This document shows positions 22,519 through 64,000 of a stretch of 64,000 nt of DNA, one piece after another (within the stretch, counting starts at the first letter, position 1; the number at the start of each line of letters is the position of its first letter). The notes below the pieces were generated by a model. That model was not told the origin of the DNA and did no database searches. It was given only the letters and a program-made list of their open reading frames with translations. Position numbers and translations under genes: made by a program. The stretch covers positions 149,501 through 213,500 of the forward strand of contig NC_019879.2 of the NCBI RefSeq assembly GCF_002234675.1, written 5' to 3'. Source of the stretch: Oryzias latipes. Its lineage: Eukaryota; Chordata; Actinopteri; Beloniformes; Adrianichthyidae.

Positions 22519-22557
22519 GAGGCAGAAACACAGAACACAGTTTTTATACACAAATGT

Positions 22558-22847: not shown

Positions 22848-25800
22848 TTACAGGACGTACTCTAGCTCGTAGCGCACATACACGTTCTTGTCGTCGTTGT
22901 AGACCTGCGGGTACTGCGCGATCAGGGCGTCCTGGGAGCCGATGTAGATGGAGTTGTAGATCTTCCAGTAGACATCTCGAACCTTTCTAGCTGGATGGAA
23001 CAGACCCTGTAGAGACGAGAACCGGACTTTAGCAAAACACCACAACCAGGAGCACCAGTGTGGTCGAGGTTAGAGGCTGGGCCTCACCTGTAAGCAGTAC
23101 TGCAGCATGCGACAGGGGCCGAGGGCCACCCGGAGACCCTCCAGGGCCCCCATCACCGCCTGGATGACATGTGGCGAGGTCTCAAAGACGTTGGGCCACA
23201 CATAATTCAGCAGGTGGTTGAGGGAGTCCTCGCAGCCAAAGCCGTACACGCCCAGAGACATGTGCTGCACCACCGCGCTGGCCGTCTGTCTGTGGACCAG
23301 GTCCCTGTGAAGCACAGCAAACGGGTCAGAACCACAGAGAGCCAATGCGTTCTGAGCAGCAGATCCGTTTGTGGTTAAAGTGGTTCTTGCTCCATGTAGA
23401 GGAGGCAGCACCAGATCTGGCATGGATGTACCATAGAATCCGCTCTTTCAGAAAAGCCTTTAAGCCACTAGAAGATCCACAATTTATAATATATATAGTA
23501 TTCTGTAGGTACCCCTCAAGTTTAAGAACTGCATTTTGTGCAGGAACGACCCATAGTGACTCAAATTGGGGCAATAAGACAACTCAACTCAACTTTATTT
23601 ATAAAGCACTTTAAACAGAACAAGGTTCACCAAAGTGCTGAACAACACAAAAATTAATAAAAGCACATGAAAATATAAAGCATAAAACACATAAAATAGG
23701 TCCGGACTCCAACTCAGTTAAAAGCCAAAGTGAAAAAATATGTTTTAAGAGCAGATTTAAAAATACTAAGTGAGTCTATCTGTCTGAGGTACAGGGGCAA
23801 TTCCTTCCAGATTTTTGGTCCGAAGGCCGAGAAGGCTCGGTCACCTCTCCGTTTTCTCCTGGTCTTCGAGACGACCAGCTGTGTCTGATTGGTTGACCTA
23901 AGGGAGCGGGGGGGAGTGTACACCTGAATCAGGTCAGACAGATATTTTGGAGCGAGTCCACGGAGACATTTAAAAACAAATAGGAGAATTTTAAAATCAA
24001 TGCGTAAGCGAACTGGGAGCCAATGAAGAGATGCTAAAATGGGAGTGATATGTTCTTGTTTCCGTGTACCAGTTAGAAGACGGGCAGCAGCATTACAGTA
24101 GTCCAAACGTGTTGAAATAAAAGCATGGATTAAAATCTCAAAGTCATGGTGAGAGAGGAGAGGTTTAACCTCGGCCAGTTGTCTCAGGTGAAAAAAACTG
24201 GATTTCACCACTGAGTTGATATGAGCATTAAAAGTTAAATTGCTATCCAATAAGACAACTGGGTGTCGCCATCCTCACAAACATTTTTCCCACGGCAAAG
24301 AGGAGATCCTAAAGCACATCCATGCTGCTGAACGGGGGGAGAATAACAAACGGCCCCACCTGTCCATCAGCGCGTCCTCCAGCAGCGGCGTGACGGCGTA
24401 GATGTAGTCTTTGCCCATCTCTCCGATGTACTCAAACAGGAAGGAGAGAGATTTGAGGACGCCGTTCTGCACGTTCAGCTCGGGGACTCGGTACTCGTTC
24501 ATGAGCGCCGGCAGCACGGTGAAAGGCGAACACGTCTCTGCCACGATGGCAATGGCCACGGTGGTGCAGACCCGGTTCTGCCGCTCCTGGACCTTCAGGT
24601 TGTTGAGCAGTGTGGCCAGAACGTCGTGAGGGCTGCGAGACAGAACCGGAACATTTGAGAGCAGGTCCGCCTGCGGACGGCGGGTGGTGGTGGATGAGCA
24701 CTCACCCGATGGCTTTGGCGATGTAACCGAAGGTGTTGACTGTGGCTCTGCGGATGGCCTTTTTGTGAGCCTTGAGGAGCTCCAGCAGCTCAAAGCAGAT
24801 CCTCATCCACTCCCTGGCAGACACGTACTCGGCCCCCCTGACAAGAAAAGGAAACATGGTTTAAAGGACAGCTGCTGAAACGGCAGCAAAACCTCCAGAA
24901 CCAACAGACCTGTCAGCGATCCGGCCCACCAGGTCGATGCAGTTCTCCTGGACCTTCTCATGCCGGTTCTTCAGGATGGGGGTCAAGCGAGGAAGCAGGT
25001 CTTTGATAGGAGGGGTCATCTTGTGCATTCCTGCAACAAGAACCAGTCAGGATTTTCTCTGTAATACCAAATCTTGGGCAGGTCGTGCATGAGGGGAGGC
25101 GGCGCACCAATGACGTTTACGATGGCCTTGAGTGCGCCCAGGATACTGCCCAGAACCTCGGGGTACTCCTCTCCCAGGTACTCGTACAGCACCACCCCCA
25201 GATGGCCCATCAGCTTCTCCTGCAGAGGGACAGCAGAGCGGGTGAGGCCTCAGGCCTGAGCTGCAGGTTTACGGGGGCGGGGTCACCTACCTCCTGACAG
25301 GTCTTCATGACCACCGCTGTGCGTGAGATCAGGTCCGCCGCCTGCTGACGCACTTTGGCGGACTTGTTGTTGAGGCGCCACAGCACTGTACCGCAGATCT
25401 GAGGCAGGTACGGTTTCACGCGTTTGCCCAGCGCGTTCACCACCGTGCCAAAACCGTTCAGCATCACAGAGTCCTGCACACGGACAGAAGGTTAACCAAA
25501 GCCCCCCATAAAGCAGGAATCCATGCCTGCCCGCCCCCTACCTCTGTGGTCTGCTCCTGGAAGGCGTACAGGATGCCATCGATCAGCTGCTCCTCCAGCT
25601 TGTGGTCGATGTCAGCTGCCCCCAGGTTCCCCATGATCTTCTCGATGGTCTCCATCACCATCTTCCTGTACTGCTCCGCCTCGTCCTTCAGATCATCCAC
25701 GATGCGCGAGATGATCTCTGCCGCCCCCACTTTGTTGGCCAGCTCCACGGTGGTGTCCACCAGCTGGAACCAGAGACAACAGAACAGTTAGTGCCCCCTA

Positions 25801-36015: not shown

Positions 36016-39000
36016 ATGGCGGTCCTCAAGCTGGCCGATCAGGTAGGGTGCGCTAGCCACCGTTAGCTTAGCCTCCGAGGCGCCGCTCAGCATCCCGCCC
36101 GGGTCAAAGCGGAGCTCGGTTCCGCCTCTGAGGGGACGGACCGCGGCGCAGACGGAGAAGAAGAACTTCCGCAGAAAAAAGTTCAGCTCGGAAGGTTTTC
36201 ACCGCTCATTTCAAGCGGAACCTTTTCTTCATTGATTCATCTGATAAAAACGGGTCTGTGGGCTAGAACTAAACCAGAACCAGAACCAGAACTGCGGGGG
36301 AAACAGGCAGAAGCAGAAATAGAGGAAAACCTCCAGTGTCTCACTTCAGTGTTTGTGTCATCATCACTACTGATAACCGCAGATGTTACTGACAGCAGGT
36401 CTGAAATGTGAGGAATGCTGCAGGTGACATCCTGGCTCCTCCCCTCACCTGCATCCAGGTGTTGGATCAAAGACGGCAGCTGTCCTCAGAAAAGCTCAGT
36501 GGCACATGAAGGTGCTCTGCTGGGGTACCTGATGACGTCACAGTTCTTCAGGAACAGCTGCCGGTAGGCCCCTCAAAGAGTGTGCTGTCACACCGTCTTC
36601 CCTGGGGGGTCCTCACACTACAAGAGTTTGGAGAGGAGGGTGCAGCTCTCTGATGCCACCAAGGGCCCCCACCTTCAAAGTTCATTACTGTTTTATTGCA
36701 TTGGATTTACATTTGTGTCCCCTGTCAGTGGGGCCAACACGGCCAGGCTCCTATGCAGTTTCTCACATGGTCCATGTATGTTGTACTTTCACACACGGTC
36801 CATGTATGTTGTACTTTAACACACATGGTCCATGTATGTTGTACTTTCACACACGGTCCATGTATGTTGTACTTTCACACACGGTCCATGTATGTTGTAC
36901 TTTAACACACATGGTCCATGTATGTTGTACTTTCACACACGGTCCATGTATGTTGTACTTTCATACACATGGTCCATGTATGTTGTACTTTCACACACGG
37001 TCCATGTATGTTGTACTTTCATACACATGGTCCATGTATGTTGTACTTTCACACACGGTCCATGTATGTTGTACTTTCACACACGGTCCATGTATGTTGT
37101 ACTTTAACACACATGGTCCATGTATGTTGTACTTTAACACACATGGTCCATGTATGTTGTACTTTAACACACATGGTCCATGTATGTTGTACTTTCACAC
37201 ACGGTCCATGTATGTTGTACTTTCATACACATGGTCCATGTATGTTGTACTTTCACACACGGTCCATGTATGTTGTACTTTCACACACGGTCCATGTATG
37301 TTGTACTTTAACACACATGGTCCATGTATGTTGTACTTTCACACACGGTCCATGTATGTTGTACTTTCATACACATGGTCCATGTATGTTGTACTTTCAC
37401 ACACGATCCATGTATGTTGTACTTTAACACACATGGTCCATGTATGTTGTACTTTCACACACGGTCCATGTATGTTGTACTTTCACACACGGTCCATGTA
37501 TGTTGTACTTTAACACACATGGTCCATGTATGTTGTACTTTCACACACGGTCCATGTATGTTGTACTTTCATACACATGGTCCATGTATGTTGTACTTTC
37601 ACACACGGTCCATGTATGTTGTACTTTCATACACGTGGTCCATGTATGTTGTACTTTCACACACGGTCGATGTATGTTGTACTTTAACACACATGGTCCA
37701 CGTATGTTGTACTTTCATACACATGGTCCATGTATGTTGTACTTTCACACATGGTCCATGTATGTTGTAGTTTTACACACGTACCATGTATGTTGTACTT
37801 TCACACACGGTCCATGTATGTTGTACTTTCATACACATGGTCCATGTATGTTGTAGTTTTACACACGGTCCATGTATGTTGTACTTTCACACACGGTCCA
37901 TGTATGTTGTACTTTAACACACATGGTCCATGTATGTTGTACTTTCATACACATGGTCCATGTATGTTGTACTTTCACACATGGTCCATGTATTTTGTAC
38001 TTTAACACACATGGTCCATGTATGTTGTACTTTCACACATGGTCCATGTATTTTGTACTTTCACACATGGTCCATGTATGTTGTACTTTAACACACATGG
38101 TCCATGTATGTTGTACTTTCATACACATGGTCCATGTATGTTGTACTTTAACACACATGGTCCATGTATGTTGTACTTTAACACACATGGTCCATGTATG
38201 TTGTACTTTCACACACGGTCCATGTATGTTGTACTTTCATACACGTGGTCCATGTATGTTGTACTTTCACACACGGTCGATGTATGTTGTACTTTAACAC
38301 ACATGGTCCACGTATGTTGTACTTTCATACACATGGTCCATGTATGTTGTACTTTCACACATGGTCCATGTATGTTGTAGTTTTACACACGGTCCATGTA
38401 TGTTGTACTTTCACACACGGTCCATGTATTTTGTACTTTCATACACATGGTCCATGTATGTTGTACTTTCACACACAGTCCATGTATGTTGTAGTTTTAC
38501 ACACGGTCCATGTATGTTGTACTTTCACACACGGTCCATGTATTTTGTACTTTAACACACATGGTCCATGTATGTTGTACTTTCATACACATGGTCCATG
38601 TATGTTGTACTTTCACACACGGTCCATGTATTTTGGACTTTCACACATGGTCCATGTATTTTGTACTTTAACACACACGGTCCATGTATGTTGTACTTTA
38701 ACACACATGGTCCATGTATGTTGTACTTTCACACACGCTCCATGTATGTTGTACTTTAACACACATGGTCCATGTATGTTGTACTTTCATACACATGGTC
38801 CATGTATGTTGTACTTTAACACACATGGTCCATGTATGTTGTACTTTAACACACATGGTCCATGTATGTTGTACTTTAACACACATGGTCCATGTATGTT
38901 GTACTTTAACACACATGGTCCATGTATGTTGTACTTTCATACACATGGTCCATGTATGTTGTACTTTCACACACGGTCCATGTATGTTGTACTTTAACAC

Positions 39001-42000
39001 ACATGGTCCATGTATGTTGTACTTTCATACACATGGTCCATGTATGTTGTACTTTCACACACGGTCCATGTATGTTGTACTTTAACACACATGGTCCATG
39101 TATGTTGTACTTTCATACACATGGTCCATGTATGTTGTACTTTAACACACATGGTCTATGTATGTTGTACTTTCACACACGGTCCATGTATGTTGTACTT
39201 TAACACACATGGTCCATGTATGTTGTACTTTCATACACATGGTCCATGTATGTTGTACTTTAACACACATGGTCCATGTATGTTGTACTTTAACACACAT
39301 GGTCCATGTATGTTGTACTTTCATACACATGGTCCATGTATGTTGTACTTTAACACACATGGTCCATGTATGTTGTACTTTCACACACGGTCCATGTATG
39401 TTGTACTTTAACACACATGGTCCATGTATGTTGTACTTTCACACACATGGTCCATGTATGTTGTACTTTCATACACATGGTCCATGTATGTTGTACTTTA
39501 ACACACATGGTCCATGTATGTTGTACTTTAACACACATGGTCCATGTATGTTGTACTTTAACACACATGGTCCATGTATGTTGTACTTTAACACACATGG
39601 TCCATGTATGTTGTACTTTCATACACATGGTCCATGTATGTTGTACTTTAACACACATGGTCCATGTATGTTGTACTTTAACACACATGGTCCATGTATG
39701 TTGTACTTTAACACACATGGTCCATGTATGTTGTACTTTCATACACATGGTCCATGTATGTTGTACTTTCACACACGGTCCATGTATGTTGTACTTTAAC
39801 ACACATGGTCCATGTATGTTGTACTTTCATACACATGGTCCATGTATGTTGTACTTTCACACACGGTCCATGTATGTTGTACTTACACACACATCGTCCA
39901 TGTATGTTGTACTTTAACACACATGGTCCATGTATGTTGTACTTTAACACACATGGTCCATGTATGTTATACTTTCACACACGGTCCATGTATGTTCTGA
40001 GTTCTGCTGTTTCTGCAGATTGAAAAACCGTTTTCATAATTACTCAGACTGAAGGAAGGTGAACTTTCTTGCAGGGCGCCGCTCTGAACGCGGCCAGGCT
40101 AGAGAAACGTGCGTGGAAGGCAGAGCGGGTCAGAAGCAGGCTGCAAGGGAGAAACTTCATGTTGGTTTAATTCACGTCGTTTACCGCCTGAAACCTTCCC
40201 CTGAATCAGGAAGGAAGAGCTTTTTGTGTGTAAGACCCGAAACGGCAGGACTTCCTGTTACCCTCTGATGAAGATGAAGATAAGCATAAGCTGAAGCCGC
40301 TTGTGTGATTCAGAGGTTCTGCTCAGCGGTTGGAGCAGAACTGAGGATCTTTGGTCCTGAGACCACGCAGGAGGGCTTTTCCTGCATAACCACTGCCGTT
40401 TTTGTGATAGCGGCTGTCGTTCAGGTGGAAGCCAGAAGGCGTGGAGACGTGTCGGAGCTGCTGTGGAATGAAAACAGCGTTCCTCTGATGTGGGACGCTG
40501 AGGGGGGTAAAAAGGACGGCCGAGATGTTTATCTGTGGCTCCTGTCTGGGTATGACAGCCCCATTTCCTTCAGTCCTGCTCCGGGATTTGACCATGAACA
40601 ACTAGAGAGGGTGTTGGTTGTAACTAGTTAAAACGTAAAAGCAGGAGGCGGGGCTTCATGGGACCTCTTAGCAGGAGCTCATCACAGGGACCTTCAGATT
40701 CTCATCCTGACAGAAACTCTAGGAGGAAAAACCAAAACACCTGCAGAGATTCTGTAGCTCAGTTGGGAAAAAAGCAGGAAGATGAACAGCAGCATGTCCT
40801 GCTGTCCTCTGATGATCATCTATAAAGGACCCCCTGGAGCTCCTTTACCCAGCATGCATTTCCAACTTCATGGTTCCTGCTGCTTCAGATTCACACGAAC
40901 ACACGGCGCTTACAGCATCTGCTCCCTTTGGTTCTCCTCCTCTCTGTGGAAAGTCTGTCTGCATTCACACTGAAGAGAACCGCACCAGAGTTCATCTGCA
41001 AGTGAATGCAGACCGTGCTGCAGGCTTAGCCTCTAGAATCCGTCTGTGTGAACCCTGAAGGGAGGAGAACCTGCTGGGATGATTCTGGATGCAGATTTCA
41101 GAAGCTGCTGGAGTTCACGGAGGTGTGTGTGTGTGTGGGGGGGGGGGGGCGGTCAAAGCAACCGGTTTAGCTGCAGACAAAGAGTGCTGTCAACAGAGAC
41201 ACAGAGCAAGTGGATGTTTGCAGAGACAACTGGGGCAGATACGGTAAAGGACGGAGCCTTGGGGGCACCTGGGGCGATGGGCTGGGGCGGGGCGGGAAGG
41301 CTTTGAGCTGAGAGGGACCTGAAGGAGATGAATGAGGGGTTTAAGAGCTGAAGCCGAATGGAGGTCGGATCATTTCAGCTTAGAAAGACTCAGATGTTTG
41401 TGAAACTGCAGCATCTGCTGATGTCCTTTCTTGGAACAGCTGAGAAAAACTAGAATCATCAAAGTAAACATCTTTGCTCTGAATGAAGCTCTGCATTTAA
41501 AAAACCGTCAAACCAAATGAAAGACGAGCCAGAGGATGAAAGCAGCTGCTTAAACGTGACAGAAGCTCTGGGAAGAAAAAAGACTGTTAATAGTTACCGT
41601 GTCGATGTGGAGGGCTGCGGTCTCACCTGGGCCTTCAGGTCTGTCTGAAGAAGGATTCTGTGGACAAACACAAACAACATTCTTGACATTTTCCCCTGCA
41701 GTCGTTCCTGTTTTTCAGGAGGAGCTGACCCTGTTTCAGAATGAGAACAATCTGCTGTTGTCTGCGTTCCTGGGATGTTGCAATGTGTGTTTCAGGGACT
41801 GCCTGTGGCTGCAGAGATGCTGGGAAGACCAGAGTTAGGGTCTTCCTGCAGCTGACGTCTGTGCTGCTGGGGGTTTAGTTCTGCAATCAGGAGGTTCTCT
41901 TCATCCAGACAACGTTGTCTTGAAGTCGAACGGCAAAATGTTTCAAAGAAGAAGATTTGAAGTCCAGTTTCCACGACTCAACTTGAAGACGGTCTTTTCA

Positions 42001-48000: not shown

Positions 48001-51000
48001 CTGCACTGGGCCGCCTTCATGGGTAAGACTGGGATGAACCGCCTTCAAATCCAGTGTTGCAGCTGTGCTTGTGTGTTCTTCTTCATCCTACATGTGTAAA
48101 GCGTGTTCATTTGTGTCATGAACTGCTGCTGCTGTGGGTCTGAACATCAGATGATCCCTAAAGGCTTCTTCCAGTCTGAGCTCCACCTGTCGGTGCTTTC
48201 AGTCTGACACACATCAGTGTGAACCCTCATCTTCCTCCTCGCTCAGCTGCTTCATCACTTTACCGTCTTCACCGATCGGACAAACAGTCTTTTGGTTTGA
48301 ACTCTGTGGACTTGCTCTGCCCCCTGCAGGTCACCTGGATGTCGTGTCTGTGCTGGTGAGTCATGGCGCTGAGGTCAGCTGTAAGGACAAGCGAGGGTAC
48401 ACGCCGCTCCACGCAGCGGCCTCCAGCGGACAGATCGCCGTGGTCAAACACCTGCTCAGCCTGTCAGTGGAGGTCAGCATGCATGACCGCAGGCATCAAC
48501 ACTGTGCAGCGCCGTGTGTTAAAAAGATTCAATGTTTATCCCAACATGTGTAAAAAACTCATCCTCCACCACACGACAGCCCTTGGCTGTAGCTCCTGAT
48601 GCTGACCGTCTGCTGTCTGTCCCTGACGGTCACGCGTGTCACATAGCACATGGGAGAGTAACTGACGGTCACACGTGTCACGTCACACATGGGAGAGTAA
48701 CTGACGGTCACACGTGTCACGTCACACATGGGAGAGTAACTGACGGTCACGCGTGTCACGTCACACATGGGGGAGTAACTGACGGTCACGCGTGTCACGT
48801 CACATATGGGAGAGTAACTGCCGGTCACGCGTGTCACGTCACTCATGGGAAAGTAACTGCCGGTCACGCGTGTCACGTCACTCATGGGAAAGTAACTGGC
48901 GGTCACACGTGTCACGTCACATATGGGAGAGTAACTGACGGTCACGCGTGTCATGTCACTCATGGGAAAGTAACTGGCGGTCACACGTGTCACGTCACTC
49001 ATGGGGGAGTAACTGACGGTCACGCGTGTCACGTCACTCATGGGAAAGTAACTGGCGGTCACACGTGTCACGTCACTCATGGGAGAGTAACTGACGGTCA
49101 CACGTGTCACGTCACACATGGGAGAGTAACTGACGGTCACGCGTGTCACGTCACACATGGGGGAGTAACTGACGGTCACGCGTGTCACGTCACATATGGG
49201 AGAGTAACTGCCGGTCACGCGTGTCACGTCACTCATGGGAAAGTAACTGCCGGTCACGCGTGTCACGTCACTCATGGGAAAGTAACTGGCGGTCACAAGT
49301 GTCACGTCACATATGGGAGAGTAACTGACGGTCACGCGTGTCATGTCACTCATGGGAAAGTAACTGGCGGTCACACGTGTCACGTCACATATGGGAGAGT
49401 AACTGACGGTCATGCGTATCACGTCACTCATGGGGGAGTAACTGGCGGTCACGCGTGTCACGTCACAGATGGGGGAATAACTGCCGGTCACACATGTCAC
49501 GTCACTCATGGGGGAGTAACTGACGGTCACACGTGTCACGTCACTCATGGGCGAGTAACTGACGGTCACGCGTGTCACGTCACTCATGGGAAAGTAACTG
49601 GCGGTCACACGTGTCACGTCACATATGGGAGAGTAACTGACGGTCATGCGTATCACGTCACTCATGGGGGAGTAACTGACGGTCACGCGTATCACGTCAC
49701 TCATGGGGGAGTAACTGACGGTCACACGTGTCACGTCACTCATGGGGGAGTAACTGACGGTCACACGTGTCACGTCACTCATGGGCGAGTAACTGACGGT
49801 CACGCGTATCACGTCACTCATGGGCGAGTAACTGACGGTCACGCGTATCACGTCAATCATGGGGGAGTAACTGACGGTCACGCGTATCACGTCACTCATG
49901 GGGGAGTAGCTGACGGTCACGCGTATCACGTCACTTATGGGCGAGTAACTGACGGTCACGCATATCACGTCACTTATGGGCGAGTAACTGACGGTCATGC
50001 GTATCACGTCACTCATGGGGGAGTAACTGACGGTCACGAGTGTCACGTCACTCATGGGCGAGTAACTGACGGTCACGCGTATCACGTCACTCATGGGGGA
50101 GTAACTGACGGTCACGCGTATCACGTCACTCATGGGGGAGTGACTGACGGTCACGCGTATCACGTCAATCATGGGGGAGTAACTGACGGTCACGCGTATC
50201 ACGTCACTAATGGGGGAGTAGCTGACGGTCACGCGTATCACGTCACTTATGGGCGAGTAACTGACGGTCACGCGTATCACGTCACTCATGGGGGAGTAAC
50301 TGACGGTCACGCGTGTCACGTCACACACGGGGGAGTAACTGACGGTCACACGTGTCACGTCACACATGGGAGAGTAACTGACGGTCACGCGTATCACGTC
50401 ACTCATGGGGGAGTAACTGACGGTCACGCGTGTCACGTCACACATGGGGGAGTAACTGGCGGTCACGCGTGTCAAGTCACACATGGGGGACTAACTGGCG
50501 GTCACGCGTATCACGTCAATCATGGGGGAGTAACTGACGGTCACGACTGTCACGTCATTCATGGGGGAGTAACTGACGGTCACGAGTGTCACGTCACTCA
50601 TGGGCGAGTAACTGACGGTCACGCGTATCACGTCACTCATGGGGGAGTAACTGACGGTCACGCGTATTACGTCACTCATGGGGGAGTAACTGACGGTCAC
50701 ACGTATCACGTCAATCATGGGGGAGTAACTGACGGTCACGCGTATCACGTCACTCATGGGGGAGTAGCTGACGGACACGCGTATCACGTCACTTATGGGC
50801 GAGTAACTGACGGTCACGCGTATCACGTCACTCATGGGGGAGTAACTGACGGTCACGCGTGTCACGTCACACATGGGGGAGTAACTGGCGGTCACGCGTA
50901 TCACGTCAATCATGGGGGAGTAACTGACGGTCACGACTGTCACGTCACTCATGGGCGAGTAACTGGCGGTCACGCGTATCACGTCACTCATGGGGGAGTA

Positions 51001-54000
51001 ACTGACGGTCACATGTGTCACGTCACTCATGGGCGAGTAACTGACGGTCACGCGTGTCACGTCACTCATGGGAAAGTAACTGGCGGTCACACGTGTCACG
51101 TCACATATGGGAGAGTAACTGACGGTCATGCGTATCACGTCACTCATGGGGGAGTAACTGACGGTCACGCGTATCACGTCACTTATGGGCGAGTAACTGA
51201 CGGTCATGCGTATCACGTCACTCATGGGGGAGTAACTGACGGTCACACGTGTCACGTCACTCATGGGCGAGTAACTGACGGTCACGCGTATCACGTCACT
51301 CATGGGCGAGTAACTGACGGTCACGCGTATCACGTCACTCATGGGGGAGTAACTGACGGTCACGCGTATTACGTCAATCATGGGGGAGTAACTGACGGTC
51401 ACGCGTATCACGTCACTCACGGGGGAGTAGCTGACGGTCACGCGTATCACGTCACTTATGGGCGAGTAACTGACGGTCATGCGTATCACGTCACTCATGG
51501 GGGAGTAACTGACGGTCACGAGTGTCACGTCACTCATGGGCGAGTAACTGACGGTCACGCGTATCACGTCACTCATGGGGGAGTAACTGACGGTCACGCG
51601 TATCACGTCACTCATGGGGGAGTAACTGACGGTCACGCGTATCACGTCAATCATGGGGGAGTAGCTGACGGTCACGCGTATCACGTCACTTATGGGCGAG
51701 TAACTGACGGTCACGCGTATCACGTCACTCATGGGGGAGTAACTGACGGTCACGACTGTCACGTCACTCATGGGCGAGTAACTGGCGGTCACGCGTATCA
51801 CGTCACTCATGGGGGAGTAACTGACGGTCACATGTGTCACGTCACTCATGGGCGAGTAACTGACGGTCACGCGTATCACGTCACTCATGGGGGAGTAACT
51901 GACGGTCACGAGTGTCACGTCACTCATGGGCGAGTAACTGACGGTCACGCGTATCACGTCACTCATGGGGGAGTAACTGACGGTCACGCGTATCACGTCA
52001 ATCATGGGGGAGTAACTGACGGTCACGCGTATCACGTCACTCATGGGCGAGTAACTGACGGTCACGCATATCACGTCACTCATGGGGGAGTAACTGACGG
52101 TCACGCGTATCACGTCACAGATGGGGGAGTAACTGACGGTCACGCGTGTCACGTCACTCATGGGCAAGTAACTGACGGTCACACGTGTCACGTCACTCAT
52201 GGGGGAGTAACTGACGGTCACGCGTGTCACGTCACTCATGGGCGAGTAACTGACGGTCACACGTGTCACGTCACTCATGGGGGAGTAACTGACGGTCACG
52301 CGTGTCACGTCACTCATGGGCAAGTAACTGACGGTCACGTGTGTCACGTCACACATGGGGGAGTAACTGACGATCACGCGTGTCACGTCACACATGGGGG
52401 AGTAACTGACGGTCACACGTATCACGTCACTCATGGGGGAGTAACTGACGGTCACGCGTGTCACGTCACTCATGGGCGAGTAACTGACGGTCACACGTGT
52501 CACGTCACTCATGGGCGAGTAGCTGACGGTCAAGCGTGTCACGTCACACATGGGGAGTAACTGACGGTCACGCGTGTCACGTCACTCATGGGGGAGTAAC
52601 TGACGGTCACGCGTGTCACGTCACACATGGGGGAGTAACTGACGGTCACGCGTGTCACGTCAAACATGGGGGAGTTACTGACGGTCACGCGTGTCACGTC
52701 ACACATGGGGGAGTAACTGACGGTCACACGTGTCACGTCACACATGGGGGAGTAACTGACGGTCACGTCATCCATGGGGGAGTAACTGACGGTCACGCGT
52801 GTCACGTCACACACGGGGGAGTAACTGACGGTCACACGTGTCACGTCACACATAGAGGAGTAACTGACGGTCACGCGTATCACGTCACTCATGGGGGAGT
52901 AACTGACGGTCACGCGTATCACGTCACTCATGGGGGAGTAACTGACGGTCACGCGTATCACGTCAATCATGGGGGAGTAACTGACGGTCACGCGTATCAC
53001 GTCACTCATGGGGGAGTAGCTGACGGTCACGCGTATCATGTCACTTATGGGCGAGTAACTGACGGTCACGCGTATCACGTCACTCATGGGCGAGTAACTG
53101 GCGGTCACGCGTATCACGTCACTCATGGGGGAGTAACTGACGGTCACACGTGTCACGTCACTCATGGGCGAGTAACTGACGGTCACGCGTATCACGTCAC
53201 TCATGGGGGAGTAACTGACGGTCACGAGTGTCACGTCACTCATGGGCGAGTAACTGACGGTCACGCGTATCACGTCACTCATGGGGGAGTAACTGACGGT
53301 CACGCGTATCACGTCAATCATGGGGGAGTAACTGACGGTCACGCGTATCACGTCACTCATGGGGGAGTAACTGACGGTCACACGTGTCACGTCACTCATG
53401 GGCGAGTAACTGACGGTCACGCGTATCACGTCACAGATGGGGGAGTAACTGCTGGTCACGCGTGTCACGTCACACATGGGGAGTAACTGACGGTCACGCG
53501 TATCACGTCACAGATGGGGGATTAACTGCCGGTCACGCGTGTCACGTCACAGATGGGGGAGGAACTGACGGTCACACGTGTCACGTCACTCATGGGCAAG
53601 TAACTGACGGTCACACGTGTCACGTCACTCATGGGCGAGTAGCTGACGGTCACGCGTATCACGTCACTCATGGGCGAGTAACTGACGGTCACACGTGTCA
53701 CGTCACTCATGGGGGAGTAACTGACGGTCACGCGTATCACGTCACTCATGGGGGAGTAACTGACGGTCACGCGTATCACGTCAATCATGGGGGAGTAACT
53801 GACGGTCACGCGTATCACGTCACTCATGGGGGAGCAGCTGACGGTCACGCGTATCACGTCACTCATGGGCGAGTAACTGACGGTCACACGTGTCACGTCA
53901 CTCATGGGCGAGTAACTGACGGTCACGCATATCACGTCACACATGGGGGAGTAACTGACGGTCACGAGTGTCACGTCACTCATGGGCGAGTAACTGACGG

Positions 54001-57000
54001 TCACGCGTGTCACGTCACAGATGGGGGAGTAACTGCCGGTCACGCGTGTCACGTCACAGATGGGGGAGTAACTGACGGTCACACGTGTCACATCACTCAT
54101 GGGCAAGTAACTGACGGTCACGTGTGTCACGTCACTCATGGGGGAGTAACTGACGGTCACGCGTGTCACGTCACACATGGGGGAGTAACTGACGGTCACA
54201 CGTATCACGTCACTCATGGGGGAGTAACTGACGGTCACGCGTGTCTTGTCACTCATGGGCGAGTAACTGACGGTCAAGCGTGTCACGTCACACATGGGGA
54301 GTAACTGACGGTCACGCGTGTCACGTCACTCATGGGGGAGTAACTGACGGTCACGCGTTTCACGTCACACATGGGGGAGTAACTGACGGTCACGCGTGTC
54401 ACGTCACACATGGGGGAGTAACTGACGGTCACGTCATCCATGGGGGAGTAACTGACGGTCACGCGTGTCACGTCACACACGGGGGAGTAACTGACGGTCA
54501 AACGTGTCACGTCACACATAGAGGAGTAACTGACGGTAACGCGTGTCACGTCACTCATGGGGGAGTAAATAAAGGTCACGTGTGTCACGTCACTCATGGG
54601 AAAGTAACTGACGGTCACGCGTGTCACGTCACACATGGGGGAGTAACTGACGGTCACGCGTGTCACGTCAAACATGGGGGAGTTACTGACGGTCACGCGT
54701 GTCACGTCACACATGGGGGAGTAACTGACGGTCACGTCATCCATGGGGGATTAACTGACGGTCACGCGTGTCACGTCACACACGGGGGAGTAACTGACGG
54801 TCACACGTGTCACGTCACACATAGAGGAGTAACTGACGGTCACGCGTGTCACGTCACTCATGGGGGAGTAAATAAAGGTCACGTGTGTCACGTCACTCAT
54901 GGGAAAGTAACTGACGGTCACACGTGTCACGTCACTCATGGGCGAGTAACTGACGGTCACACGTGTCACGTCACTCATGGGCGAGTAACTGACGGTCACG
55001 CATATCACGTCACACATGGGCGAGTAACTGACGGTCACGCGTGTCACGTCACAGATGGGGGAGTAACTGACGGTCACACGTGTCACGTCACTCATGGGCA
55101 AGTAACTGACGGTCACGTGTGTCACGTCACACATGGGGGAGTAACTGACGGTCACGCGTGTCACGTCACACATGGGGGAGTAACTGACGGTCACACGTAT
55201 CACGTCACTCATGGGGGAGTAACTGACGGTCACGCGTGTCACGTCACTCATGGGCGAGTAACTGACGGTCACACGTGTCACGTCACTCATGGGCGAGTAG
55301 CTGACGGTCAAGCGTGTCACGTCACACATGGGGAGTAACTGACGGTCACGCGTGTCACGTCACTCATGGGGGAGTAACTGACGGTCACGCGTGTCACGTC
55401 ACACATGGGGGAGTAACTGACGGTCACGCGTGTCACGTCAAACATGGGGGAGTAACTGACGGTCACACGTGTCACGTCACACATGGGGGAGTAACTGACG
55501 GTCACGTCATCCATGGGGGAGTAACTGACGGTCACGTGTTTCACGTCACACACGGGGGAGTAACTGACGGTCACACGTGTCACGTCACACATGGGGGAGT
55601 AACTGACGGTCACGCGTGTCACGTCACACACGGGGGAGTAACTGACGGTCATGCGTATCACGTCACACATAGAGGAGTAACTGACGGTCACGCGTATCAC
55701 GTCACTCATGGGGGAGTAACTGACGGTCACGAGTGTCACGTCACTCATGGGCGAGTAACTGACGGTCACGCGTATCACGTCACTCATGGGGGAGTAACTG
55801 ACGGTCACGCGTATCACGTCACTCATGGGGGAGTAACTGACGGTCACGCGTATCACGTCAATCATGGGGGAGTAACTGACGGTCACGCGTATCACGTCAC
55901 TCATGGGGGAGTAGCTGACGGTCACGCGTATCACGTCACTTATGTGCGAGTAACTGACGGTCACGCGTATCACGTCAATCATGGGAGAGTAACTGACGGT
56001 CACACGTGTCACGTCACTCATGGGCGAGTAACTGACGGTCACGCGTATCACGTCACTCATGGGGGAGTAACTGGCGGTCACGCGTATCACGTCACTCATG
56101 GGAGAGTAACTGACGGTCACACGTGTCACGTCACTCATGGGCGAGTAACTGGCGGTCACGCGTATCACGTCACTCATGGGAGAGTAACTGACGGTCACAC
56201 GTGTCACGTCACTCATGGGCGAGTAACTGACGGTCACGCGTATCACGTCACTCATGGGCGAGTAACTGGCGGTCACGCGTATCACGTCACTCATGGGAGA
56301 GTAACTGACGGTCACACGTGTCACGTCACTCATGGGCGAGTAACTGACGGTCACGCGTATCACGTCACTCATGGGGGAGTAACTGCCGGTCACGCGTGTC
56401 ACGTCACACATGGGGAGTAACTGACGGTCACGCGTATCACGTCACTCATGGGGGAGTAACTGACGGTCACGCGTATCACGTCACAGATGGGGGAGTAACT
56501 GACGGTCACGAGTGTCACGTCACTCATGGGCGAGTAACTGACGGTCACGCGTATCACGTCACTCATGGGGGAGTAACTGACGGTCACGAGTGTCACGTCA
56601 CTCATGGGCGAGTAACTGACGGTCACGCGTATCACGTCACAGATGGGGGAGTAACTGCCGGTCACACGTGTCACGTCACTCATGGGGGAGTAACTGACGG
56701 TCACGAGTGTCACGTCACTCATGGGCGAGTAACTGACGGTCACGCGTATCACGTCACTCATGGGGGAGTAACTGACGGTCACGCGTATCACGTCACTCAT
56801 GGGGGAGTAACTGACGGTCACGCGTATCACGTCAATCATGGGGGAGTAACTGACGGTCACGCGTATCACGTCACTCATGGGGGAGTAGCTGACGGTCACG
56901 CGTATCACGTCACTTATGTGCGAGTAACTGACGGTCACGCGTGTCACGTTACTCATGGGCGAGTAACTGGCGGTCACGCGTATCACGTCACTCATGGGAG

Positions 57001-60000
57001 AGTAACTGACGGTCACGCGTATCACGTCACTCATGGGGGAGTAACTGACGGTCACGAGTGTCACGTCACACATGGGGGAGTAACTGACGGTCACGCGTGT
57101 CACGTCAAACATGGGGGAGTTACTGACGGTCACGCGTGTCACGTCACACATGGGGGAGTAACTGACGGTCACGTCATCCATGGGGGAGTAACTGACGGTC
57201 ACGCGTGTCACGTCACACACGGGGGAGTAACTGACGGTCACACGTGTCACGTCACACATAGAGGAGTAACTGACGGTCACGCGTGTCACGTCACTCATGG
57301 GGGAGTAAATAAAGGTCACGTGTGTCACGTCACTCATGGGAAAGTAACTGACGGTCACGCGTGTCACGTCAAACATGGGGGAGTTACTGACGGTCACGCG
57401 TGTCACGTCACACATGGGGGAGTAACTGACGGTCACGTCATCCATGGGGCAGTAACTGACGGTCACGCGTGTCACGTCACACACGGGGGAGTAACTGACG
57501 GTCACACGTGTCACGTCACACATAGAGGAGTAACTGACGGTCACGCGTGTCACGTTACTCATGGGGGAGTAAATAAAGGTCACGTGTGTCACGTCACTCA
57601 TGGGAAAGTAACTGACGGTCACGCGTGTCACGTCACATATGGGAGAGTAACTGTCACACAGCACATGGGGGAGCAGAAGGATTTACAGTCCAGCAGATCA
57701 CGCTCCCCAACACGGTCTAAAAGCTGATGTGTGACTTCTACAACTGGGCCCTCAGTAGTGTCTAGCCTCACAGTGATTCTAATGTCCTATGTGCAAACAT
57801 GACGATGCATTTAAAGTCGGATGTAAATCAGGAAAATGCAACCTTTATTAGACAGAGACACCCACCAAAGGGGAGTTCAGGTACATTGTTGTTGTTGTGG
57901 AGCCCTTCAGTGTAGCTGCATCCTTCCTAATGTAGGAAGGAACCATCATCCTCCTCATCCTCACATGTTTTACCCAGCTGCCATGCTTCACGTGTGTGAA
58001 TGTGACAGTCCTGAGACCCCCCCCCCTTTGACCACAGATAGATGAGCCCAACGCCTTCGGGAACACGGCTCTCCACTTGGCGTGCTTCAACGGCCAGGAC
58101 GCCGTCGTAAGCGAGCTGATCGATTATGGCGCCAATGTCAGCCAGCCCAACAACAAGGGCTTCACGCCACTGCACTTTGCTGCCGCGTCCACGCACGGAG
58201 CGCTCTGCCTGGAGTTCCTGGTGAATAATGGCGCCGACATCAACATCCAGGTATGACCTCTGACCTTCACAGGAAAACCAGCGTCATCCGCCGTGGTCTG
58301 GAGGCCCGCAGCTCCAAAGACTTCTGGGAAATCTGAAAACTGTGTGTGCATGTTTGTGTGTGTGCATGTGCACGTTTGTGCATGTACATGTGCATATGTG
58401 TGTGCATGTGTACGTACGTGTGTGTGTGTGTGTGCATTTACATGAGCACGCGTGTGTGTGCATGTGCATGTACATGTGTGTTTGTGTTTGTGCATGCGTT
58501 TGTGCATGTGCACGTGTGTGTGTGTGCATGTACATCTTTGTGTGTGGGTGATGTGCACGTTTGTGCATATGAACGTGTGTGTGCGTGTGCACGTGCATTT
58601 ACATCTTTGTGTGTGTGCATGTTTGTGTGTGTTTGTGCACGTGTGTGCATGTACATGTGCACGTATGTGTGCATATACATGAGCACGTGTTTGTGTGTGT
58701 GCATGCGTTTGTGCATATGCACGTGTGTGTGCGCGTGCAATTGTGTGTTTGAAGAACATCAAACCTGCAGCACATTAACGGGTCCACCTTTTTTCCTCCG
58801 GGGGGGTCAGAGTCGGGATGGGAAGAGTCCTCTCCACATGACGGCCGTTCACGGACGTTTCACGCGCTCGCAGACGCTCATCCAGAACGGTAAGCCCCTC
58901 CCCCCGCCCTGGTGTTGGTTCCGCCTTCACACAGATGCTTTCTTTCAGGGGGGGAAATCAACAGCGTGGACAAGGACGGAAACACCCCCCTCCATGTTGC
59001 TGCACGCTACGGACACGAGCTCCTCATCAACACGCTCATCACCAGCGGAGCCGACTGCGCCAGGTCGTGCCCCCCACCCCGCCGGAAGGCCTGAACTGTG
59101 ACCCGACGTGACGTGAGTGTCCTTCTGTGTGCAGGCGGGGGGTCCACGGGATGTTCCCTCTCCACCTGGCCGCCCTGAACGCTCATTCGGACTGCTGCAG
59201 GAAGCTGCTGTCCTCAGGTAACCCCCGAGCCCCCCAGGGGAGATTTGACATCAACAAAGCCAGAATGACAGACAGCTGTCTGCTGCTGTGCGTCCATCAA
59301 ACCTAAATGTATGTTTGATCCAAAGACCCAGTTCTCCGGGTCAGCTGCTGCTTTCTGCACCCCCGGGGGGTGGGGGGTCCAGCTTTGACGCCTCTCTCTC
59401 TGCTCGCCCACTACATAGTGAGCAGCTTTGCTGTTGGGGGGCCGTTTTCTAAATTCACTTAACTTTATCTAGAAACATTAAATTCATAAAGAATTTTCTG
59501 AACCTGCTGGATCCCAGGACCAGAACCAGACCCAGAACCAGAGCTAAAGCTAGAACCAGAGCTATAGCCTGACCCTGACCCAGAACCAAACCCAGAAACA
59601 GAGCTAGACCCTGACCCAGAACCAGAACCAGAACCAGACCCAGAGCTAGACCCTGACCCAGAGCCAGAGCTAGAGCCTGACCCTGACCCTGACCCAGAAC
59701 CAGACCCAGAGCTAGACCCTGACCCAGAACCAGAGCTAGACCCTGACCCAGAACCAGAGCTAGAGCCTGACCCTGACCCAGAACCAAACCCAGACCCAGA
59801 GCTAGACCCTGACCCAGAGCCAGAGCTAGAGCCTGACCCTGACCCAGACCCAGACCCAGAACCAGAGCTAGACCCTGACCCAGAACCAGAGCTAGAGCCT
59901 GACCCAGAACCAGAGCTAGAGCCTGACCCTGACCCTGACCCTGACCCAGAACCAGAACCAGAACCAGAGCTAGAGCCTGACCCTGACCCTGACCCAGAAC

Positions 60001-61847
60001 CAGAACCAGACCCAGAGCTAGACCCTGACCCAGAGCCAGAGCTAGAGCCTGACCCTGACCCTGACCCTGACCCTGACCCTGACCCAGAACCAGACCCAGA
60101 GCTAGACCCTGACCCAGAACCAGAACCAGAGCTAGACCCTGACCCAGAACCAGAGCTAGAGCCTGACCCAGAACCAGACCCAGACCCAGAACCAGAGCTA
60201 GAGCTAGAACCAGAGCTAGAGCCTGACCCTGACCCAGAACCAGACCCTGACCCAGAACCAAACCCAGACCCAGAGCTAGACCCAGACCCAGACCCAGACC
60301 CAGAACCATAACCAGAACCAGAGCAAGAGCCTGACCCAGAACCAGAGCTAGAGCCTGACCCTGACCCTGACCCAGAACCAGACCCAGAGCTAGACCCTGA
60401 CCCTGACCCTGACCCTGACCCAGACCCAGACCCAGAACCAGAGCTAGACCCTGACCCAGAACCAGAGCTAGAGCCTGACCCAGAACCAGAGCTAGAGCCT
60501 GACCCTGACCCTGACCCTGACCCAGAACCAGACCCAGAGCTAGACCCTGACCCTGACCCAGAACCAGAACCAGACCCAGAGCTAGAGCCTGACCCAGAAC
60601 CAGAACCAGAGCTAGAGCCAGAGCTAGACCCTGACCCAGAGCTAGAGCCTGACCCAGAACCAGAGCCAGAACCAGAACCAGACCCAGAGCTAGAGCCTGA
60701 CCCAGAACCAGAGCTAGAGCCTGACCCTGACCCAGAACCAGACCCAGAACCAGAGCTAGAGCTAGAACCAGAGCTAAAGCCTGACCCTGACCCAGAACCA
60801 GACCCTGACCCAGAACCAAACCCTGACCCTGACCCTGACCCAGACCCAGACCCAGACCCAGAACCAGAGCTAGACCCTGACCCAGAACCAGAGCTAGAGC
60901 CTGACCCAGAACCAGACCCAGAGCTTCACTGACCTGCCTCTCTGATTCTCTGATACTTGTGTCACTAACAGCTGTCTGTCTGTCTGTCCCCCGCCACCCC
61001 CCCCCCCCCCCCCCGCTCTCTGCTGCTGCCCCCCCCCCGCGCTGTCCCGGTCAGGTCGGAGGTTTAGTTTGTGTAACGACTCGGTCCTGTTCGCAGGCTT
61101 CCAGATAGACACCCCCGACAGCCTGGGGAGGACGTGTCTGCACGCGGCTGCAGCGGGGGGGTGAGTTTCAAACCTGAGGCAGACGCAGATGCCTGTGACT
61201 GTCAGACATCTGTGCACGAAAGCAGAGCCACGCTAGGATCATGAGATCAGGCATGTTGTCATGACGACTAGAGCATGAGTCTGCAGGTGTCTGCAGACGT
61301 CTGCAGACACCTGCAGACGTCTGCAGACGTCTGCAGACACCTGCAGACGTCTGCAGCTACTTTCTGTTTCCCTGGTTTTCCCTGAACACCAAACACTTCC
61401 AGGATGAACAGCTTTCTTGCTCTTTTATCTGGTTGCACATGTTTGCAGAGTCTCACTCCAGTTTCTCTGGACAACAATTCAACCTGATGAGAAAGGACCA
61501 ATCAAAGGACCCCCAATGAAAATCCCACCTGTTTCCTTGTGTGTGTGTGTTTGCAGAAACGTGGATTGTGTGCAGCTGCTGCTGAAAAGTGGAGGAGAAC
61601 ACAACAGGACAGATAAGTGTGGCAGGTCAGAGACCAGATTATGAGAATATGAAGAATCTCTGATCTCCATGGATTCACGTCTCCCTCGCTCTCCCCCGTC
61701 CGTCAGGACTCCGCTGCATTACGCCGCCGCCAGCCGCCACTATCACTGTCTGGAGACGTTGGTAGTGTGTGGCACCGACATTAATGCCACTGACCAGTGG
61801 GGGCGCTCTGCCTTGCACTATGCTGCTGCCTCAGACCTGGACAGGAG
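36016..61847 (+). CDS. ANKRD44: ANKRD44, PP6 regulatory ankyrin-repeat subunit B, 3' end off the window
   Basis: Fourteen coding exons: 36016-36042, 43588-43671, 45713-45791, 45927-45997, 46997-47197, 47935-48022, 48330-48472, 58038-58250, 58811-58889, 58949-59063, 59135-59217, 61097-61160, 61557-61625, 61707-61847. Phases agree throughout, giving 485 codons plus two bases of a protein near 990 aa in human. It is built of about 33-residue ankyrin repeats ([51 protein letters not shown] and others). ANKRD44 binds the PP6 catalytic and SAPS subunits (family knowledge). The start [20 protein letters not shown], the block [20 protein letters not shown] and the SF3B1 neighbour favour ANKRD44 over ANKRD28 or ANKRD52. 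Introns 1 (7.5 kb) and 7 (9.6 kb) are inflated by minisatellites, and introns 2, 11 and 14 also hold arrays. The intron 10 donor (AG|GTCGTG) is weak. No frameshift or stop was found. Confidence 0.95.
36769..39996. repeat. Minisatellite, 28/30-bp units, about 110 copies, in ANKRD44 intron 1
   Basis: All units share GGTCCATGTATGTTGTACTT. They end as TCACACAC (28 bp), TAACACACAT (30 bp) or TCATACACAT (30 bp). Because 30 is divisible by 3 and the unit lacks stops, overlapping open frames of up to 286 residues arise on both strands. They have no start context, splice link or varied composition, so they are not genes. The right half (38750-39990) is mostly 30-bp units; the left half mixes both lengths. 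Confidence 0.97.
39997..43587. other. ANKRD44 intron 1, right part, no gene seen
   Basis: Mostly unique sequence. It holds a TG/poly-G microsatellite (41121-41150) and a perfect 21-bp hairpin (42164-42211). No conserved coding blocks. Confidence 0.5.
42164..42211. ncRNA. Perfect 21-bp inverted repeat with 6-nt loop
   Basis: The arms at 42164-42184 and 42191-42211 are exact reverse complements, with loop CAGCAT. Arm 1 begins GTCTGTGATGCG. Pairing stops outside the arms (G/A), so the stem is shorter than a typical pri-miRNA. Listed as a possible structured RNA only; a template-switch palindrome is equally likely. Confidence 0.3.
43771..44175. repeat. Minisatellite, 11-bp unit GATCCCCTGCT, about 37 copies, in ANKRD44 intron 2
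   Basis: The units are GATCCCCTGCT, GATCACCTGCT, GATCCCCTGAT, GATCACCAAAT and GGTCCCCTGCT. The array begins about 100 bp after exon 2. Minus-strand frames across it repeat GDQQGISR-type peptides and are artefacts. Confidence 0.95.
44587..45271 (+). mobile_element. Internally deleted hAT transposon with transposase remnant
   Basis: The terminal inverted repeats are CAGGGGTTCTCAAAGT at 44595 and its near-complement ACTTTGAGAACCTCTG ending at 45263. They are flanked by imperfect 8-bp target duplications (GTTTAGAT and CTTCAGAT, two mismatches). The 669-bp body keeps an open frame (44924-45148) whose [20 protein letters not shown] and [11 protein letters not shown] segments match the N-terminal part of hAT transposases of the GTF2IRD2/ZBED-like type. 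The catalytic core is absent, so it is a dead, formerly mobilised element. Confidence 0.75.
45559..45572 (-). promoter_or_regulatory. CTCF consensus match in ANKRD44 intron 2
   Basis: On the minus strand CCACTAGGTGGCGC matches CCASYAGRKGGCRS at 14 of 14 positions. Confidence 0.4.
46590..46765 (+). mobile_element. Degraded tRNA-derived SINE in ANKRD44 intron 4
   Basis: The plus strand has CGGCTGGACGGCTCAGTTGG (tRNA-like 5' end) and the SINE body GTGTGGGCCTTTAGGCAAGA followed by CCCTTCATGC. The B box is weak. Confidence 0.5.
47525..47730. repeat. Dispersed repeat, copy 4 of 4 (partial)
   Basis: It matches the 3' part of copy 2 (CTGTTTATTTCTCTGTAAAA, AGTCTATGGGATTTTGG, ACTTCCTGTT). In ANKRD44 intron 5. 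Confidence 0.5.
48622..57671. repeat. Giant 39-bp minisatellite, about 232 copies, in ANKRD44 intron 7
   Basis: The unit joins GTAACTGACGGTCACGCGTG to TCACGTCACACATGGGGGA, 39 bp or 13 codons. Frequent variants are ACACGTG or ACGCGTA for ACGCGTG, CACTCATGGG for CACACATGGG, and GGCGAG, GGAAAG or GAGAG at the end. A full unit has four CpGs, one TCACGTCA (TGACGTGA on the other strand) and, in ACACGTG variants, an E-box CACGTG. Two indel classes recur: a 38-bp unit (one G fewer) and a 30-bp unit (GTCACGTCATCCATGG). Frames are open for up to 1342 codons (48532-52560) on the plus strand and 686 on the minus strand. They are perfect-period peptides ([13 protein letters not shown] and similar) with no splice link to ANKRD44. 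The first and last units (CACATAGCACATGGG, CACACAGCACATGGG) resemble each other. Confidence 0.98.
58340..58745. repeat. Long alternating purine-pyrimidine tract (TG/CA/TA/CG mix)
   Basis: About 400 bp of near-continuous alternation such as GTGTGCATGTGCACG and GTGTACGTACGTGTG, more complex than a plain TG microsatellite. In ANKRD44 intron 8. Open frames here are Cys/Val or His/Thr repeats and not genes. Confidence 0.85.
59519..60925. repeat. Hexanucleotide-based array (GACCCT/GACCCA/GAACCA/GAGCTA), ANKRD44 intron 11
   Basis: About 235 hexamers in varying order. In one plus-strand frame it would read Asp/Glu-Pro and Glu-Leu dipeptides; the minus strand gives a 454-residue Gly/Gln/Leu/Ala frame. 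The minus strand has long TCAGGG runs (for example 60050-60086), a known variant of the telomeric repeat with G-quadruplex potential. Confidence 0.95.
61281..61356. repeat. Short 12-bp tandem repeat (CTGCAGACGT/CTGCAGACAC) in ANKRD44 intron 12
   Basis: About six copies of CTGCAGACGT or CTGCAGACAC units containing the PstI-type palindrome CTGCAG. Confidence 0.85.
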
Positions 61848-62062
61848 GTGAGCAAGTCCTTCCTGCAGGGGGGGGGGGGGGGGGGGGGGGGGGGGCTGAG
61901 GGGGCTTGAGCACCTGCCCCTTTTACCCAGAAGCCCCAAGTGCCCTTTTTGTCAAAGGTCTTTATGTCCCATTTTCATGTGAAAGCCTGTGAAACACGTT
62001 CATGTGCCAACAGCCTCCATCAGGAAATAATAGAAGACAAAATATGAACACGCCTCTCTCCT

Positions 62063-64000
62063 AGACACACGCTACACACACGCTACAGACACGCTACAGA
62101 CACGCTACAGACACGCTACACACACGCTACACACGCGCTACAAACAAGCTACACACACGCTACACACAAGCTACACACAAGCTACACACATGCTACACAC
62201 ACGCTACACACAAGCTACACACAAGCTACACACACTACAGACACGCTACAGACACGCTACAGACACGCTACACACACGCTACACACGCGCTACAAACAAG
62301 CTACACACACGCTACACACAAGCTACACACAAGCTACACACATGCTACACACACGCTACACACACGCTACACACGCGCTACAAACAAGCTACACACACGC
62401 TACACACAAGCTACACACAAGCTACACACATGCTACACACACGCTACACACAAGATACACACAAGCTACACACACTACAGACACGCTACAGACACGCTAC
62501 ACACACGCTACACACAAGATACACACATGCTACACACACGCTACACACAAGCTACACACGCGCTACACACAAGCTACACACGCGCTACACACATGCTATA
62601 CACACGCTACACACACTCTACACTAAAGCTACACACAAACTACACACGCTACACACAAGCTACACACACGCTACACACAAGCTACACACAAGCTACACAC
62701 ATGCTACACACACGCTACACACAAGCTACACACAAGCTACACACACTACAGACACGCTACAGACACGCTACACACACGCTACACACAAGATACACACATG
62801 CTACACACACGCTACACACAAGCTACACACGCGCTACACACAAGCTACACACAAGCTACACACATGCTACACACACGCTACACACAAGCTACACACAAGC
62901 TACACACACGCTACAGACACGCTACAGACACGCTACAGACACGCTACACACACGCTACACACGCGCTACAAACAAGCTACACACACGCTACACACAAGCT
63001 ACACACAAGCTACACACATGCTACACACACGCTACACACAAGCTACACACAAGCTACACACACTACAGACACGCTACAGACACGCTACACACACGCTACA
63101 CACAAGATACACACATGCTACACACACGCTACACACAAGCTACACACGCGCTACACACAAGCTACACACGCGCTACACACATGCTATACACACGCTACAC
63201 ACACTCTACACTAAAGCTACACACAAACTACACACGCTACACACAAGCTACACACAAGCTACACACAAGCTACACACAGGCTACACACAAGCTACACACG
63301 CGCTACACACATGCTACACACATGCTACACACGCGCTACACACGCGCTACACACAAGCTACACACAAGCTACACACACGCTACACACGCGGTACACACAC
63401 GCTATACACAAGCTACACACATGCTACACACACGCTACACACAAGATACGAACAAGCTACACACACGCTACACACAAGCTACACACACGCTACACACAAG
63501 CTACACACGCGCTACACAGAGGCTACACACAAGCTACACACGCGCTACACACACGCTACACACAAGCTACACACAAGCTACACACAAGCTACACACACGC
63601 TACACACAAGCTACACACACGCTACACAGAGGCTACACACAAGCTACACACGCGCTACACACAAGCTACACACAAGCTACACACACGCTACACACAAGCT
63701 ACACACAAGCTACACACAAGCTACACACACGCTACACACAAGCTACACACAAGCTACACAGAGGCTACACACAAGCTACACACGCGCTACACACAAGCTA
63801 CACACAAGCTACACACACGCTACACACAAGCTACACACAAGTTACACACATGCTACACACACGCTACACACAAGATACGAACAAGCTACACACAAGCTAC
63901 ACACAAGCTACACACGCGCTACACACAAGCTACACACAAGCTACACACACGCTACACACAAGCTACACAGAGGCTACACACAAGCTACACACGCTTTACA
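62063..64000. repeat. Minisatellite, 11-bp unit (GCTACACACAC), at least 175 copies, runs off the window
   Basis: The units are GCTACACACAC, GCTACACACAA, GCTACAGACAC, GCTACACACGC and GCTACACACAT. A distinctive junction (ACTCTACACTAAAGCTACAC) occurs at 62614 and again 588 bp later, showing block duplication. The array fills the visible part of ANKRD44 intron 14, and its right end is outside the window. Open frames here repeat an 11-residue peptide. Confidence 0.97.

Follow-up and report, generated by a model that had tools for sequence, protein, structure and literature searches.

Large intronic minisatellites are difficult to resolve from short-read data, and it is seldom tested whether they affect genes. 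The closest parallel in size and place to the array described here is TRACT, which the accessible text of a preprint describes as a 30-bp variable number tandem repeat (VNTR) in an intron of human CACNA1C ranging from 3 to >30 kb; that preprint associates long TRACT alleles with reduced expression of CACNA1C (fibroblasts) and of CACNA1C-IT3 (testis), and links disease risk to certain unit variants (PMC13131567, preprint). G+C-rich minisatellites with units of tens of bp are also abundant in the genome of the fish Nothobranchius furzeri, as described in the accessible part of PMC2688266. The window analysed here is a 64,000-nucleotide stretch of the Oryzias latipes genome (assembly GCF_002234675.1, contig NC_019879.2, positions 149,501 to 213,500 of the forward strand), numbered from its first letter. 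One intron of an ankyrin-repeat gene in this window holds a 9-kb tandem array of 39-bp units with the core TCACGTCA (TGACGTGA on the opposite strand), and the array is in our reading a large but ordinary intronic minisatellite, closest in kind to the known large intronic VNTRs.

The array resembles TRACT in having units of 30–40 bp, hundreds of copies, a span of several to tens of kb and a position within a single intron, and in both cases the common units differ by single substitutions (PMC13131567). It differs in having a 39-bp unit of unrelated sequence in a different gene, and also in its internal order, since some TRACT alleles contain long perfect tracts of a single variant (26 units) whereas only 8 of 232 adjacent units of the array are identical, as in random pairs (2.9%). 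Moreover, TRACT is backed by expression data and by cited mouse and organoid work. The 77-, 49- and 24-nucleotide minisatellites of N. furzeri map to centromeric regions in the text available (PMC2688266), whereas the array is intronic. In its motif the array recalls the zebrafish reporter 5XATF6RE, which also has tandem sites with a TGACGTG core; the reporter, however, was engineered by placing five TGACGTGGCGATTCC sites at a minimal promoter, and the array carries a natural TGACGTGA in a 39-bp context (PMC6994954, in the part accessible).

Boundaries, period and copy number of the array were taken from Tandem Repeats Finder, which reported 90% matches and 1% indels, and unit-by-unit counts from our own wraparound alignment. 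The majority unit is CTGACGGTCACGCGTGTCACGTCACTCATGGGGGAGTAA. The alignment yielded 233 full units and a terminal fragment, the latter being excluded from all unit counts. Among the full units, 222 are gapless, six are 30-bp units that have lost 9 bp, and five are 38-bp units that have lost 1 bp; these 11 gapped units of the 233 were excluded from the column and haplotype counts and included in the core counts. With head-to-tail units of 39 bp in 233.1 copies on the one haplotype analysed, the array is a minisatellite in the sense of many head-to-tail units of about 10–100 bp, and a 26-base degenerate half unit extends it to about 57676 (Table 1). A first-pass annotation of the window had placed roughly 232 units at 48622..57671; the array proved real, with those bounds off by less than 20 bases and that count within two copies. 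The six 30-bp units, at 52756, 54422, 54725, 55495, 57162 and 57426, all retain TCACGTCA and seem to stem from a single loss of 9 bp between the unit's two copies of GTCACG, later dispersed to six places. No Rfam family was found at the gathering score, and a search of viral contigs with a 26-base unit pattern gave no match, as expected for animal DNA.

Table 1. Features of the array and of the intron that holds it, in window coordinates.
Feature	Coordinates	Strand	Evidence and remarks
Ankyrin-repeat exon (GHLDVV...SVE), donor GTCAGC	48329..48472	+	tblastn, Pfam Ank, splice boundary; exon 7 assuming an unseen exon 1
Array-holding intron, 9,565 bp	48473..58037	+	Splice boundaries as read; array = 94% of intron
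39-bp minisatellite	48623..57653	+	233.1 copies; 222 TCACGTCA, the outermost at 48678 and 57628; 48 CACGTG; 880 CpG
First unit of array	48623..48661	+	TCACATAGCACATGG in place of the TCACGTCA core
Degenerate last half unit	57651..57676	+	Carries TCACACAGCACATGG, a non-core state near-identical to that of the first unit
Next ankyrin-repeat exon (IDEPNAFGN...ADINIQ)	58038..58250	+	Exon 8 assuming an unseen first exon

All 222 copies of TCACGTCA in the array lie on the + strand and none on the - strand, and the rest of the window contains a single copy on both strands together. Of the 233 full units, 222 have the core, namely all six 30-bp units, all five 38-bp units and 211 of the 222 gapless ones, and successive sites are 39 apart in 200 of 221 intervals. 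When a 39-mer of the same base composition was shuffled, TGACGTGR appeared in 0.5% of 5,000 trials, so that its presence in the unit is not a matter of compositional chance; its 222-fold count, on the other hand, reflects copying and not 222 independent events. The consensus of the unfolded protein response element (UPRE) is given as TGACGTGG/A in the accessible text of PMC8301375, and the array matches it with 222 TGACGTGA and 0 TGACGTGG, that is, in the A form only. The palindromic cAMP response element TGACGTCA, the UPRE form TGACGTGG and TCACGTGA each occur 0 times in the array. CCAAT and CCACG are absent from both of its strands, the only cores present being CGTGA, so the array contains no endoplasmic reticulum stress response element (ERSE) of the form CCAAT-N9-CCACG as printed in PMC8301375. 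CACGTG, the E-box recognised by USF/MYC-type factors, occurs 48 times, in 48 of the 222 gapless units and thus in about 21% of the 233 full units, far from the majority expected of an E-box platform; its context is CACACGTGTCA in 40 units, CACGTGTGTCA in seven and CACGTGTTTCA in one. The first-pass annotation was therefore right that most units carry the TGACGTGA motif, and right in its reading of that motif, which fits the UPRE consensus, but its statement that a large share of units also carry CACGTG was too generous, one unit in five being nearer the count. Splice-like words in the array number 201 for CTGAC, 207 for AGTAAC and 4 for AGGT.

The edges of the array point to how it was formed. 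Both carry TCACAYAGCACATGG where inner units have TCACGTCACACATGG or similar, both lack the core, and they have in common AGCACATGG, a sequence with no occurrence on either strand of the window other than those at 48645 and 57660. Edge copies of arrays tend to be least homogenised, and for this reason the state shared by both edges is probably the older one, the TGACGTGA core having arisen inside the array and then spread. As for the E-boxes, 47 of the 48 E-box units are one CpG transition away from CACGCGTGTCA, a state present in 58 units, and CACACGTGTCA and CACGTGTGTCA are single-step products. We infer from this that each E-box probably derives from CACGCGTG by one CpG transition. The array shows no sign of runs of a single unit type, and exact block repeats extend over 302 bp at a lag of 2778, 272 bp at 974 and 220 bp at 390. 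Multi-unit exchange followed by mutation fits this pattern better than fresh single-unit slippage, and fast ongoing slippage of single units is disfavoured, given that neighbouring units match no better than units paired at random. The scrambling of units together with the long-lag blocks likewise counts against the array being a simple artefact of assembly made up of identical copies.

The array is thus best explained, and in our judgement quite probably, as an ordinary intronic minisatellite that underwent expansion and homogenisation and carried the core along. Intron sequence would have become a minisatellite through unequal exchange and conversion of multi-unit blocks; the 39-bp unit of today would simply happen to hold the TGACGTGA core, and the spread of core-bearing units would have brought it to 222 copies. 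The E-boxes would have come from CpG transitions in CACGCGTG and would then have been copied along with their units. The main consequence for the gene would be a longer, repeat-filled intron, and binding by CREB/ATF/XBP1-type factors would be incidental and conditional on an unmethylated, open array. The surroundings of the array agree with such an origin. The window contains eight further arrays of >400 bp, with units of 22/77, 25, 40, 30, 11, ~22 (TG type), 6 and 11 bp, and the eleven listed repeat stretches, the 39-bp array included, make up 32.6% of the window and 70% of the region from 45.7 to 64 kb. TGACGT is found in none of these eight other arrays, the 40-bp array containing the half site TGACG 34 times. 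Since the window is so rich in other arrays, no selected motif is needed for array growth, and minisatellite growth is a property of the locus or the genome and not of a TGACGT-type motif.

Several observations weigh against so plain an account and have to be set beside it. TCACGTCA is the best-kept of the 39 8-mer windows of the unit, being intact in 211 of the 222 gapless units and retained in all 11 deletion-bearing units; no substitution in the core is found in >4 units, and other substitutions reach 94. Taken as a window named in advance, the core is conserved at p = 0.005 under shuffled substitution frequencies. The array unit contains three of 11 listed cores, and at least three turn up in a shuffled unit in 0.02% of 5,000 trials, although the list was drawn up after the unit had been viewed and two of the three cores (ACGCGT, CACGCG) overlap. 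Finally, the CpG observed/expected ratio (o/e) of the array is 1.26 (880 CpGs) versus 0.56 in the rest of the window. A rival proposal makes the array a stress-responsive element that enhances or silences the ankyrin gene in cis, at which XBP1s, ATF6 or CREB3-type basic leucine zipper (bZIP) factors would bind 222 single-orientation TGACGTGA sites, mostly 39 bp apart, with a dose set by copy number. Besides the well-kept core and the retained CpGs, this proposal can draw on 222 exact matches to the UPRE consensus, and in live zebrafish five tandem TGACGTGG-core sites are enough to make an ATF6 reporter work (PMC6994954, accessible text). However, that reporter is built on a longer ATF6 site and is slightly inhibited by XBP1s, and XBP1s is said in PMC8301375, as far as its accessible text goes, to prefer CGTGG, whereas the array has the A form only; no ERSE is possible in it, and the core is missing from both edges. 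With every one of the 39 windows taken into account, the conservation of the core loses its significance: ranked as the best among them, it has p = 0.10 under shuffled substitution frequencies and p = 0.21 under shuffled columns. Of 76 haplotypes, 51 could be placed one step from a commoner haplotype, and 7 of these 51 steps alter the core versus 10.5 expected (p = 0.15); the units of the array are not independent, and all of these p-values are rough. Mutations thus enter the core at a near-normal rate without spreading, and a handful of chance amplifications would account for this about as well as selection does. The evidence from the sequence leans against selection for binding, and the core probably serves no selected function. 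Methylation of the core CpG would be expected to hinder factor binding, and 222 sites (444 in a diploid with equal alleles) are few relative to the many bZIP sites of a genome, so that a local effect in cis is more plausible than a trans-acting sink for factors. By analogy with the five tandem sites that work in zebrafish, binding of factors to the array is possible, and a putative effect of copy number on the gene is a reasonable supposition, but a stress-responsive element in the full sense seems to us improbable.

The CpG content invites a second proposal, which we consider improbable to the same degree, namely that the array is an intragenic CpG island unmethylated in the germline, an orphan island whose 880 CpGs in 9 kb would recruit CxxC proteins and acquire promoter-like chromatin. 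CpG islands are recognised by GC >50%, CpG o/e >0.6 and a length of >200 bp, and the array has a GC content of 0.56 and the o/e given above over 9 kb. Its four CpG dinucleotides are kept in 0.98, 0.75, 0.86 and 0.97 of units, the figures for the 40-bp array (20.5 kb) being 0.56, 0.58 and 0.63 (one-sided rank test, p = 0.029, 4 versus 3 sites), despite the fact that non-CpG columns vary more in the 39-bp array. In a count by cells, for which a CpG site had to be kept in 30% or more of the units, CpG transitions stand to other transitions at a ratio of ~1.3 in the 39-bp array (0.0434 versus 0.0330) and of 3.2 to 50 in four other arrays, represented by their gapless units only (43, 44, 71 and 170). 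The higher retention hints at a less methylated germline state. On the other hand, among the one-step variants of the 39-bp array CpG transitions are 3.0 times as frequent per site as other transitions (14 versus 19 events), which implies some methylation-type decay and argues against a complete absence of methylation; the strong claim of CpG protection suggested by the cell-counted ratio was withdrawn on this count. Applied to the four comparison arrays, the event count gave 5.1, 7.4, 0 and 0 from 4, 8, 11 and 15 events (1, 1, 0 and 0 CpG transitions), too few to serve as a baseline. In cold-blooded vertebrates, zebrafish included, predicted CpG islands overlap poorly with measured non-methylated islands according to the accessible part of PMC3583005, and a recent spread of a CpG-rich unit accounts for the retention equally well. 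A combination of the two proposals, in which 222 UPRE cores kept unmethylated would form an intron that senses endoplasmic reticulum stress, adjusts the activity of the ankyrin gene and acts as a sink for XBP1s/ATF6-type factors, the core being preserved as the remainder of the unit drifts, is less probable still. That the array might code for a protein with a 13-residue repeat is suggested by stop-free frames of 1,345 (+) and 696 (-) residues, the former (48523-52560, 1,345 aa) matching Pfam Lysostaphin_N at 1.5e-60, a domain that itself has 13-residue repeats. This we rejected and hold to be scarcely credible, because the unit length of 39 is divisible by three, so that one open unit keeps the frame open and both strands are open together; in addition, the four most variable columns (12, 16, 26, 33) fall at codon positions 1, 2, 3 and 1 of the + frame, the five 38-bp units break the frame, and the array sits between plausible splice sites. 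The Lysostaphin_N match serves as a warning that tandem repeats yield false family matches. Four consensus units fold as RNA at -72.5 kcal/mol (+) and -67.1 (-) versus -47.8 to -61.3 for five shuffles, a comparison from which no inference was drawn, the shuffles being too few and the fourfold consensus not being a real sequence. Overall, an ordinary expanded repeat fits the evidence better than a purpose-built control switch.

The gene setting was read from the exons around the array. Both exons that flank the 9,565-bp intron translate to ankyrin repeats, as confirmed with Pfam, and the donor and acceptor of the intron are both plausible; six ankyrin-type exons lie between 43.6 kb and 48.5 kb, and there are more ankyrin exons on either side of the array, whose TGACGTGA cores are at least 206 bp away from the closest exon. 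Exon 1 of the gene was not found in the window, and provided that there is one such unseen first exon, the array-holding intron is likely intron 7. The gene itself is putatively ANKRD44, whose human sequence it most resembles. Translations of upstream open reading frames (ORFs) resemble, as we presume, HSPD1 (7.9-8.9 kb, +) and SF3B1 (24.3-24.8 and 29.3-29.8 kb, -), neighbours that we take to be consistent with the vertebrate surroundings of ANKRD44. Short introns, the repeat content and this set of neighbours would suit a ray-finned fish. When the joined exon translations were searched against solved structures, the matches listed (best 60 of 245) were ankyrins, designed ankyrin repeat proteins, TRPA1 and other ankyrin-repeat proteins, with no ANKRD44 among them, and for that reason the structure search gives no help in naming the gene. 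In the literature search no paper joining ANKRD44 with a minisatellite was found, and among the titles listed none names the array. The earlier description of the array as lying in ANKRD44 intron 7 accordingly holds as regards an intron of an ankyrin gene, with the gene name being putative and the intron number only likely, and its statement that the array makes up most of the intron is borne out.

Other repeats and features of the window were recorded in passing. A 30-bp array (CACATGGTCCATGTATGTTGTACTTTAACA, ~110 copies) at 36759-39996, which lies upstream of the 43.6-kb ankyrin exon, has the palindrome-like CATGGTCCATG, and the 40-bp array, at 20509-22521, has three CpG positions per unit, each retained in 56-63% of its 43 gapless units. 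An 11-bp-based array at 12274-13458 is arranged in rows of period 22, 55 and 77 bp with a strong C-over-G skew, and an 11-bp array (CTACACACAAG, 177 copies) at 62061-63992 stops 8 bases short of the window end and may continue beyond it. The hexamer array (CCAGAC, 234 copies) occupies 59520-60922; two ARAGORN calls of tRNA-Pyl within it (59865-59956 and 60441-60532, both -) are very probably repeat artefacts. An ORF at 23714-24274 (-) resembles by eye the end of a fish LINE (long interspersed nuclear element) reverse-transcriptase protein and adjoins the SF3B1-like ORF at 24275-24802 (-).

As an expanded repeat that holds one core in 39-bp steps and one orientation over 94% of an intron, the array may represent a natural dose series. 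If individuals differ in copy number, binding and gene output would be measurable against site count, and the motif merits one cheap chromatin test. More generally, copying alone can bring a motif to hundreds of copies, which calls for caution in reading motif counts in arrays as function.

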